Shown here piece by piece: positions 24,356 to 59,733 of a stretch of DNA of 64,000 bases. Positions within the stretch are counted from its first letter, which is position 1, and each line of letters opens with the position of its first letter. Source of the DNA: Haloarcula sp. CBA1127 (GTDB lineage Archaea; Halobacteriota; Halobacteria; Halobacteriales; Haloarculaceae); assembly GCF_001485575.1 (NCBI RefSeq), contig NZ_BCNB01000002.1, positions 124,001 to 188,000 on the forward strand, written 5' to 3'. The position numbers were made by a program, and so were the translations under genes. The notes beneath the pieces are model-generated. The model was not told where the DNA came from. It did no database searches and was given only the letters and a program-made list of their open reading frames with translations.

Positions 24356-24669
24356 CTCACTATTTAGAACCGTACTGTTTCGAACCGGTCATCGGGCTTC
24401 CTGTGCGTTGGTGGATTCACCTTTACTGAGTTACTTACCTCCACCGAGCTGGCTACGATTTCTACTTCTCTGCCACGTGCTGCTGGATTGAATTTCCCTT
24501 CCGTTACACATCCAGGGACTCGGAAATCACAGGAACTAGTACAGATGCAAGTGTCCAGTCATCGTCCACCTCGATGCCGCAATTGCGGACGCTCAGTGAC
24601 CGCATAGCTAATAAAATGGCATAAAACGTCATAATCGTTATTTCGTACCAACTGTATGTTACTTAATGC

Positions 24670-24805
24670 GGTTCTGGTCCCCGCGCCACCTCCCCCCACT
24701 GAATCCGATCACGTTCATCAAACGGTCCGGGTCCAGAACCCGTCGACGCGGATAACGACCCCGAATGGTGCGGTGCACACCACTCCCCCCGGCTGCCCAC
24801 CATTC
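24670..24805 (+). ncRNA. Candidate structured RNA, unit A
   Basis: Stem I pairs GGTTCTGG (24670-24677) with CCAGAACC (24733-24740) around a 55-base loop with CACCTCCCCCC. A 22-base linker contains a GTCG/CGAC mini-hairpin. Stem II pairs GAATGGTG (24763-24770) with CACCATTC (24798-24805) around a 27-base loop with a run of six C. A TATA-like TTATTT is at 24638-24643, about 27-32 nt before stem I. The unit has the same architecture as two others nearby. No function is known to me. Confidence 0.5.
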
Positions 24806-24942
24806 CTATGCTGTTGCATGGGATGTCCTTCTCACGCTATCAGATGGAAACAACGCCAGTAACAAATGAGTGGCTTGCGACCAAATCAACAGACGGCGTG
24901 GGGATATCATAAACACTTTATATACACTCGTATCGGAGCTAG

Positions 24943-25077
24943 GTGGGTTCTGTGCCCTGCCCAATCGCACTGGATTCACCCACACGATTGCTTCGGGCTG
25001 GAATCCGTCGTCGGTTTCGACGACTTCCGATGGGACGTTGCCCCCCATTTCTCCCACCCCCACAGCAACGTCCCATC
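24943..25077 (+). ncRNA. Candidate structured RNA, unit C (middle copy)
   Basis: Stem I can form between GGGTTC (24945-24950) and GAATCC (25001-25006), with one G-U pair; an alternative is GTGGGT/ACCCAC at 24943-24983. A perfect linker hairpin GTCGTCG-GTTT-CGACGAC follows at 25007-25024. Stem II is a perfect 12-bp helix, GATGGGACGTTG (25029-25040) with CAACGTCCCATC (25066-25077), closing a loop of only C, A and T apart from its last base, rich in CCC. A TATA-like TTTATATAC sits at 24917-24925, about 20-26 nt upstream of the unit. Confidence 0.5.
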
Positions 25078-25190
25078 CTTGTACGTGATTGGCGGAGCCG
25101 TGCGTTCTGGGGATGATTGTGTTGAGCGAAATTACAACTATGTTCGGAGTTAGCATAAATCACATGTCGAACGGTGCATTACAGTTACTC

Positions 25191-25318
25191 GGGTTCTGGT
25201 CCCCGCTTTGGGCCGCTTCCTACTTTGCGCCCACTCGCCCCATCCCATGTCTCGGGTCCAGAACCCATCCGTGCCTCTGACTGCAGTGGGTGGCACAACA
25301 CGGTGCCCATCGCCACCC
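25191..25318 (+). ncRNA. Candidate structured RNA, unit B
   Basis: Stem I is a perfect 9-bp helix, GGGTTCTGG (25191-25199) with CCAGAACCC (25258-25266), around a 58-base pyrimidine-rich loop. The first 15 bases (GGGTTCTGGTCCCCGC) match unit A almost exactly. After a 21-base linker, stem II pairs GGGTGGC (25288-25294) with GCCACCC (25312-25318). A TATA-like CATAAAT lies at 25154-25160. It runs toward the 3' end of the binding-protein gene at 25380. Confidence 0.5.
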
Positions 25319-25379
25319 GTCATCCGATTTCGCGCAGGCGTGCAAAACTTGCTATCCCTGCTTTTGAGGGGAACTGCTG

Positions 25380-26641
25380 TTACTGTGAGTCGGTAGCCTT
25401 GTTCGTTTCACTGATAATATCCGCGAGTTCCTCGCGATCGAACAGCTGTTCGCCCTCGGGAATCTCTGGAAGCTCGCCAGCGGTGATCTCGCCCGGCCAC
25501 TCACCGAATTCGTTGGGATAGAGCTGCTTTCCGAGCATCTCTGTCTGGAAGAGATTGATAATCGGACCCTGATAGGCTGACCCGCCGACGTATAGTCGGT
25601 CCTCCTGAACGGCGGTGAGTTCCTGCCCCAGCGAACTGTCTCGCATCCCTTCAACTGTCTTTCGGAGCGCATCCTCTCCGTTCCAGTCGCGGTAATTGAC
25701 GCCGAAGTGGAACACGAGCACGTCGGGATCGACCTCCAGCAGTGCCTCGTAGTCGACCTGGATCCCGGACTGGCCATCGTACTCGCCCTCGAACGCGTCG
25801 ACAATGCCGAGATCTCGGTACTGTTTTTTCCCGTATGCCTTGTCGATCTCAGTCCTGGGGTTGTAGGCACGGAAGAACCCCTCGTTGTCGGGTTTATTTG
25901 CGCGTTGAGCAATCCGACGCTCGGACGGTCGGACACCGGTGGAACGCGCGACCGCATCTCCTGTAGCGCCTGCTCGTAGAGGGTGTTGATAGCAGCGGCT
26001 GTCTCGGACTTTCCGAGCAGTGCTCCGTATCTGCTGACGAATTCGGGGATATCGTAGTAGGCGTAGGACTCACCACCGGGCCAGGTGGGCCAGTCGTCGC
26101 CGCGTTTGCGGCGGCTGGCGTTCCCAAAGAAGGGCCCAATCGAATCGTTGATTTCGGAAATATCGCCCTCGTCAGCACCATAGTACGAAATGAACCGGTT
26201 CGGGTCAGTAGCGAACAGGTCCGGGTCGAGTTCATAGAGAACCTCGGTTCTGAGTGACCAGTCGTCTGTCCGGACCAACTCCAGCGACTCGGGATCGGGG
26301 ACGTCTACGCCGGGAAGCTGGTCGTAGAAGCCGGTGAACCAGAACTGGTTGCCCTCGGCGGCGATGAGCTTGTCGGCTTCTCCCAGTGCAGTCAGGATGT
26401 CCTCCTCAAACCCCCACCCGCCGACAATAGTCTCCGGACTCGACTCAAGTCTGAGGTTGCCCACCGGCGCCATCGCCCCTGAATAGGACCGGTCAGTTCG
26501 TGCCCGGGTTTCGTCTGCCTCGGTGCCCCCACTCGAAAGCCCAGTACAACCTGCGAGCGAGCCAGTGGTCAGCAGCGCGGTCCCGTACTTTACGCACTCT
26601 CTCCGCGTCGACCACGTTTTGTCCTGATTAGTCTCCGCCAT
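25380..26641 (-). pseudogene. ABC-type metal/cofactor substrate-binding lipoprotein, frameshifted
   Basis: The N-terminal part (from ATG at 26641) has a Tat-type lipoprotein signal: STRREC, hydrophobic stretch, lipobox LAGC. It continues as a periplasmic-binding (BtuF/FepB-like) domain (SSPETIVGGWGFEEDILTALGEADKL). Near 25890-25902 the frame breaks: LLNAQINP should continue with NKPDNEGFFRAYNP, found one frame over and running through DVLVFHFGVNYRDW to a stop at 25380. One single-base indel would restore a roughly 420-residue protein, so this may be a sequencing error. Two operator dyads upstream suggest metal-dependent control. No permease or ATPase gene is adjacent. Confidence 0.75.
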
Positions 26642-58030: not shown

Positions 58031-59733
58031 AGCAGGTATCGCTGCGCGAGTGGGAGTTCGGAAGACGGTTCGCAGGTGACGTGGTCGCCGTCGACCCGGA
58101 CCTCGAAGGTCTCCGGGTCGACCTCGATGTCATCCGGACAGTAGCTATTGTGCACCATGTCGTCCTTGCCGGGTGTACGTGCGCCTTCAATTGGCACGAC
58201 GCGGGAGTCAAGCCCGTACTCCTCGTCGATGCCGGCCTCTGCGGCCGCCGGAGAGACGAACGACAGCGAAATGGCGTGCTTGGCCTTGCCGACCGCACCG
58301 GCACGTTCGCGCTGGAGAATCGGCTCGCAGGTCATCAGTGACCCGTTGGCTTCGCCCATCTCCGAATGGACCGGGAAGCCGCCCTTGAACGTCATCGCCG
58401 GTTTGACGCCGAAGAACGCGGGGTCCCACAGGCAGATGTCGGCAAGCTTGCCGGGTTCGAGCGTTCCGACGTGCTCCTCGATGCCGGCGCTGATAGCGGG
58501 GTTGACGGTGTACTTGGCGATGTAGCGCTTGATGCGGTGGTTGTCCGCGCCGGTCCCTTCGTCTTCGGGCAACGGCCCACGCTGGGATTTCATCTTCGAG
58601 GCCGTCTGCCACGTCCGCGGGATGACTTCGGCCATCCGCCCCATCGCCTGGGAGTCCGAGGTCATCATAGAGATCGCGCCCATGTCGTGGAGCACGTCCT
58701 CGGCGGCGATGGTCTCTGCGCGAACGCGGGATTCGGCGAAGGCCACGTCCTCCGGCACGTCGGGGTTGAGGTGGTGACACACCATCACCATGTCCAGATG
58801 CTCGTCGAACGTGTTGTCGGTGTACGGCATCGACGGGTTTGTTGAGGACGGCAGCATGTTCGGTTCGCCGACCATCTCCATGATGTCCGGCGCGTGGCCC
58901 CCGCCCGCACCCTCGATGTGGAACAGGTGCATGGTTCGGCCGTCCACAGCACCGAAGGTGTTCTCGAGGAATCCGGCTTCGTTCAGCGTATCTGTATGCA
59001 TACACACCTGCACGTCCTCGTCTTCGGCGACTTCGAGGCAGGTGTTGATGGTTTCCGGGGTCGACCCCCAGTCTTCGTGGAGTTTCAGCCCACAGGCACC
59101 GGCCTCGACCTGCTCGCGGAGCGGGCCCGGGTCGGAGGCGTTGCCCTTCCCGTAGAAACCGACGTTGACCGGCCACGCCTCGGCGGCCTGCAGGAAGCGC
59201 TTGACGTTCTCTGGCCCGGTTGTACAGGTGGTCGCGCCACCGCCGTACCCGCCGCCGAGCATAGTTGTGATTCCGCCAGACAACGCGTGTTCGTGGAGCT
59301 GTGCGGAGTTGAAGTGAATGTGGATATCGAGGCCGCCGGCGGTCGCTATCTTCCCCTCAGCCGGATAGACATCCGTCGACGGGCCGACGACCATATCGAC
59401 GCCGTCCATTGTGTCGGGGTTGCCGGCTTTCCCGATGCCGGCGATTTCTCCGTTTCGAATGCCGATATCAGCGGCAACGATACCCAGTATCGGGTCGATA
59501 ATCGTCGCGTTCGTCAGCACCCAGTCGAGTGCGCCCTCCGCCTGTGTGACGCCGGGAGCCATTCCCAGCCCGTCCCGGAGCGTTTTCCCACCGCCGAACA
59601 CTGCCTCGTCGCCGTGGGTGCGTAGGTCCTCTTCGACCTTGGCGAACAGCTCCGTATCGCCCAGCCGGACTTTGTCGCCCGTCGTTGGCCCGTACAGTTC
59701 GGCGTAGTTCTCGCGGTCAATGTCGCGTGTCAT
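58027..59733 (-). CDS. ureC: Urease alpha (catalytic) subunit
   Basis: The 568-residue subunit has the nickel-binding HIHFN, the carbamylated lysine segment GLKLHEDWG, the histidine flap [21 protein letters not shown] and the metal aspartate in [11 protein letters not shown]. Length is normal. It hydrolyses urea to ammonia and carbamate in the cytosol, needing two nickel ions. Coupled by four-base overlaps to ureB and ureA. Confidence 0.95.

Follow-up and report, generated by a model that had tools for sequence, protein, structure and literature searches.

The stretch of DNA analysed here (64,000 nt, referred to as the window) carries three tandem units on its plus strand that in all likelihood belong to a genuine family of structured RNAs, each transcribed independently. 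Family membership, structure, strand, promoters, array order and genomic distribution were computed from the sequences. A preliminary description of this DNA had proposed a new structured small-RNA family with preserved pairing and its own promoters, and this proposal is borne out by homologues in 15 species, covariation, an asymmetry in G-U pairs and a common promoter. That the family was previously uncatalogued is well supported by comparison with Rfam and by a literature search of partial coverage. The units matched no Rfam 15 covariance model at its gathering score, and none at E values up to 5. The literature search, which covered few subscription papers and no bioRxiv preprints, found no description of the family, and an earlier report is possible.

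The units in the window and their relatives

All three units were found in the sequence at the positions and on the strand where they had been placed. Unit A, a predicted A-type sRNA gene at 24669 to 24805 (+), was matched by covariance model R1 with 118.8 bits (G000:C2:148666-148804) and has orthologues in ~12 species. Its transcript is predicted to start at 24669/24670 (+). Stem I (24670-24677 paired with 24733-24740, with an inner CCCG/CGGG helix) and its C-rich loop occupy 24670 to 24740, as indicated by the fold and by covariation of helix 1. The linker hairpin GTCG/CGAC (24742 to 24759) corresponds to helix 2, in which 95.9% of the cells are paired across 56 sequences. Stem II, AATGGTG/CACCATT with CCACTCCCCCCGGCTGCC in the loop (24764 to 24804), corresponds to helix 3, where both sides have changed in 5 of 7 pairs. 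Unit B, of the B type, lies at 24945 to 25077 (+) and was recognized by R1 (89.6 bits), its fold and its arms; it consists of stem I (24945-24952 with 24994-25006), a linker hairpin (25007-25024) and stem II (25029-25041 with 25065-25077). Unit C, of the C type, lies at 25191 to 25319 (+) and was identified by covariance model R2 (137.3 bits) and by covariation, with stem I at 25191-25199 paired with 25258-25266 and stem II at 25288-25294 paired with 25312-25318. Its single-stranded linker contains CGTGCCTCTGAC (25270 to 25281, +), a candidate interaction site that is near-invariant among 27 aligned C-type units.

Perfect pairing of stem II was seen in all three units as first described, but the lengths given then (8, 12 and 7 bp) had to be revised to 7-8, 13 and 7 bp. 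A start shared by units A and B had also been reported; this was wrong, and it is units A (24670) and C (25191) that have GGTTCTGGTCCCCGC and the return arm CCAGAACC in common. Unit B (24943), which starts with GTGGGTTCTGTGCCCTGC, is more distantly related to the other two. Within the 64-kb window the core GGTTCTGNNCCC is present five times, always inside one of the three units, against an expectation of 0.06. When folding energies were compared with those of shuffled sequences, the z values were -1.1, -6.2 and -2.5 for units A, B and C, respectively. Folding energy by itself is therefore significant for units B and C only, with unit A barely exceeding its shuffles, and the convincing support for the units is their homologues and covariation rather than folding energy.

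The covariance-model search across haloarchaeal genomes suggested at the outset was carried out with two models, R1 for the A/B types and R2 for the C types; it recovered homologues, and covariation was seen in both main stems of the aligned units. An iterative profile search gave ~120 distinct units in several groups. R1 matched 125 places in 15 of 32 Haloarcula genomes, with 1-19 units in each, and R2 matched the same 15 genomes and added ~13 places, for a combined ~138 family copies. Among 391 genomes of the class, only these 15 were matched by R1 at E <= 1e-5, and R2, run across 146 genomes of the taxonomic family, agreed with R1 in finding no spread beyond them. Two weak matches outside Haloarcula, elsewhere in its order, were not supported: the one in G168 is GC-rich sequence without family features, the one in G099 scored 27.8 bits, and in the 391-genome search E <= 1e-5 was reached by no genome outside Haloarcula. 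Phage and viral collections gave no real match to the units; the lone IMG/VR match falls in an apparent terminase/portal region and lacks the unit structure. H. hispanica and H. marismortui both have family members. The array in the window has same-locus relatives in ~12 Haloarcula species, flanked where annotated by genes for a sensor kinase and a substrate-binding protein, and these genomes have extra family copies at other places.

Two further observations concern the window itself. The substrate-binding-protein gene beside the array (25352-26641, minus strand) looks frameshifted: its 429-aa ORF seems to exit the family frame, and the C-terminal part is a separate 113-aa ORF (25380-25721). 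Only a 113-aa fragment is annotated in H. marismortui, and the H. hispanica protein has 414 aa. At 59288-59580 (+), Rfam gave a match to 5_ureB_sRNA (73.3 bits), the Helicobacter urease antisense RNA family, which may merely reflect conserved urease coding sequence.

Secondary structure, strand and predicted promoters

The A/B types share a layout of stem I, a linker hairpin GTCGTCG..CGACGAC and stem II AATGGTG..CACCATT. Since the shuffles used as controls keep the relatedness of the sequences and the structure was itself derived from related sequences, the covariation values lend support but are not to be read as exact probabilities: in 56 A/B-type sequences, 94.9% of the cells are paired compared with 30-49% in slid structures, and double-change cells number 70 compared with 23.2 +/- 5.4 in shuffles; in the C types, which keep stems I and II, they number 18 compared with 7.1. 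The C-type pairing GGGTGGC/GCCACCC is swapped as a pair for GGGCGAC/GTCGCCC in a sister group. The earlier suggestion that sequence had diverged while pairing was kept by compensatory change is thus supported in both main stems. G-U pairs outnumber A-C mismatches by 186 to 32 in the A/B types and by 29 to 15 in the C types, and on this excess the RNA was assigned to the plus strand. The unpaired positions of the units are 39% C and 19% G.

We aligned 117 upstream regions on the start of stem I. The consensus has a CACAA-like box at -38 to -34, TTTT at -29 to -26 (~1 bit per position), and T at both -12 and -1. For haloarchaea, CGAAA (BRE), TTWT (TATA) and WW near -10 have been proposed as promoter elements on the basis of Haloferax (PMC4983044). 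With this consensus, BRE/TATA promoters were predicted for unit A at 24629 to 24643 (+; TCATAA ... TTATTT), for unit B at 24905 to 24924 (+; TATCATAAAC and CTTTATATA) and for unit C at 25151 to 25166 (+). A TATA-like element 20-37 nt upstream of each unit had been noted before; the promoter holds up, with the TATA-like element at -29 to -24 and a BRE-like box at -38 to -33, except that the TATA-like box of unit C is degenerate in the window (ATCACATG) and intact in orthologues (AAAATATG). Each unit thus appears to have a promoter of its own, as predicted from the consensus. By the spacing of the consensus, transcription is predicted to begin with the first base of stem I, which makes each unit look like an independent gene of ~136-145 nt. 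Across the 12 orthologous loci, conservation peaks at the units and additionally at 24580 to 24640 (+), where pairwise identity is ~0.8; this strongly conserved DNA upstream of the unit A promoter may be a regulator site.

Array order and replicon setting

The family is multicopy, with several related units in a genome (up to 19 by R1). The units fall into types D, A, A2, A3, B and C, the last being C, C2 or C3, and their order is always D-A-A2-A3-B-C, with deletions. This order was obeyed by 39 of 39 scored arrays, or 38 distinct ones since one locus was counted twice under two ids; types were assigned by the best score among type-specific profiles and not by position, and the profiles were partly built from units of these arrays. 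All six types are present on pNG400 of H. marismortui (L117). On pNG500 of the same species (L137:7733-12272), a full D-A-A2-A3-B-C array carries a ~3 kb insertion between A2 and A3.

The large chromosome is free of units in four near-closed genomes (G000, G011, G018 and G027), where all of them are on contigs of <=525 kb. Three of the contigs concerned, G011:C2, G018:C7 and G018:C4, match pHH400, pNG700 and pNG400 in coordinates. A 3.48-Mb contig of G015 has three arrays, of which two adjoin a conserved plasmid gene pair that encodes proteins of 99 and 311 aa. The recurrent plasmid setting comprises a PadR-like gene, an oppositely oriented array, the 99-aa gene and the 311-aa gene; ~10 arrays adjoin the pair or its PadR-like neighbour. 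The 311-aa protein is also found on plasmids of other haloarchaea, and several Haloarcula plasmids have it without any unit. The pair (F4-F2) was considered as an obligate partner of the arrays and rejected: it is missing at many arrays and present without them, and therefore represents genomic context and not a partner. The 311-aa coiled-coil protein (L140:5165-6100 and relatives) has no confident family assignment and may serve in plasmid replication or partition.

Away from this setting, at least six species have a single A-type unit in convergent orientation with the phosphonate transporter operon phnCDEE (L115:3758-3892 and orthologues), and in several of them a universal stress protein gene adjoins the unit. 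A separate observation concerns G000:C4 (163,503 bases), which has two rRNA operons near its contig ends (3181-7952 and 157155-161926), with two more on the large contig C6; the pair on C4 could reflect a true duplication or else an overlap in the assembly.

Candidate modes of action and related systems

The members of the family are probably related gene regulators. We lean slightly towards a reading in which the units are autonomous sRNA genes, paralogues in ordered arrays, that act in trans by base pairing; for pairing in trans as such, we consider the chances even. With its own BRE/TATA promoter, each unit would give rise to a rightward non-coding transcript of ~136-145 nt, whose 5' end, being the first base of stem I, would be locked in a helix. 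Sibling sRNAs would be carried in D-A-A2-A3-B-C arrays, with losses, on secondary chromosomes and plasmids. We infer that mRNAs could be paired through the exposed pyrimidine-rich loops and the conserved single-stranded segments, the candidates being UCAUCGAUUGG in the A/B types and GUGCCUCUGAC in the C types. Segments specific to each type would give the siblings partly different targets.

Motif counts were compared with mononucleotide shuffles of whole units plus an upstream part, which makes all expectations approximate: GTGCCTCTGAC occurs in 31 of 121 units with 0 expected, CATCGATTG in 24 units with none expected, CACCTCC in 4 of 121 (3.5 expected) and CCTCC in 23 of 121 (48 expected). 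The loops had been likened to the anti-Shine-Dalgarno C-rich loops of bacterial sRNAs, a likeness that is not supported, with CCTCC depleted and CACCTCC at chance, and with leaderless coding transcripts common in the group (72% of protein-coding transcripts in Haloferax volcanii; PMC4983044). Complementarity of the conserved segments to 16S/23S rRNA was not above random, which lends no support to an rRNA guide; as for C/D or H/ACA guide RNAs, there was again no Rfam match. The 23 neighbouring gene families showed no convincing conserved complementarity to the units, and exact complements of the C-type linker motif GTGCCTCTGAC occur in the genome at near-chance frequency.

The conserved loops could equally bind protein. 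In bacteria, CsrB and RsmZ titrate CsrA. The Haloarcula units could in the same manner be decoys that titrate an RNA-binding protein by means of their repeated C-rich loops and invariant motifs, a reading that we consider unlikely. High copy number and tandem arrays are in its favour, as is the occurrence of TCCCC in 83 of 121 units (48 expected) and of TGCCCA in 71 of 121 (7 expected). However, a candidate protein was not found, the loop sequences vary from one type to another, and only C types have the C-type linker motif.

Rather improbable is the proposal that the units are replicon-maintenance RNAs, involved in copy number, incompatibility or plasmid-plasmid conflict, that spread with secondary replicons. 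The unit-free main chromosome of the four near-closed genomes and the ~10 arrays beside the plasmid gene pair or the PadR-like gene fit such a role. Many copies, however, lie far from the gene pair (at the phn locus and at the window locus), the related plasmids pHH126, pNYT1 and pHsi139 have the pair without the RNA, and no unit was seen to overlap a replication gene in antisense. A more speculative proposal, to which we give little credence, is that the six-gene sRNA cassette is an RNA-based system of replicon identity, compatibility or dosage, in which arrays regulate shared targets across replicons.

That the units are non-autonomous, MITE-like mobile or selfish elements without a cellular function is very unlikely. 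The copies are dispersed, restricted to the genus and mostly located on plasmids and other secondary replicons, but such elements are difficult to reconcile with covariation and conserved promoters, an order fixed without exception in 38 arrays and retention of the A-B-C array at one locus in ~12 species; furthermore, no unit was seen to be spanned by a terminal inverted repeat. Cis-acting leader elements or coding remnants are hardly credible: short ORFs overlap the window array, but in most orthologues stops or frameshifts interrupt them, and unit length varies by steps that are not multiples of three, so that coding ORFs were rejected and the earlier statement that no protein gene overlaps holds for conserved genes, and the gene downstream of the arrays is mostly on the opposite strand, usually convergent, which argues against a 5' leader.

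We compared the units, taken as putative trans-acting sibling sRNAs, with known systems. We know of few archaeal sRNAs with known targets and of no large tandem sibling sRNA family in archaea, and the literature search found none either. For the present family a start site is predicted, a covariance model exists and the loci form a compact set amenable to deletion one at a time, and its confinement to secondary replicons and fixed gene order tie sRNA evolution to archaeal plasmid biology.

C-rich loops and a CCUCC-type loop motif are features of the cuckoo RNAs of alphaproteobacteria. These RNAs, which include CcsR1-4, resemble the Haloarcula units in that several homologous sRNAs stand in tandem and the loops are C-rich. 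The Haloarcula units differ in their archaeal host, in the depletion of CCTCC (23 of 121 versus 48 in shuffles), in their separate predicted promoters and in having no protein family common to all array neighbourhoods. CcsR1-4 of Rhodobacter sphaeroides share a transcript with a DUF1127 gene and are excised from it by RNase E (PMC10253847). LhrC1-5 of Listeria monocytogenes and other sibling sRNAs likewise comprise multiple related sRNA genes per genome, some of them adjacent (PMC4132741, PMC4211561); the Haloarcula units are set apart by the lack of an Rfam match, by their six types in fixed order and by their location on secondary replicons. Within haloarchaea, sRNA132 of Haloferax volcanii is likewise an intergenic sRNA with a BRE/TATA/-10 promoter, two stem-loops and a pyrimidine-rich linker, and it acts on the transcript of a phosphate-transporter operon; it is encoded on the main chromosome and was described from Haloferax species (PMC6560208), whereas the units studied here form multicopy arrays and occur in Haloarcula only. 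The Haloarcula units thus look like a sibling sRNA family that departs from the cuckoo RNAs in motif and co-transcription, and their nearest analogues appear to be bacterial tandem sibling sRNAs such as CcsR1-4 and, in haloarchaea, sRNA132.
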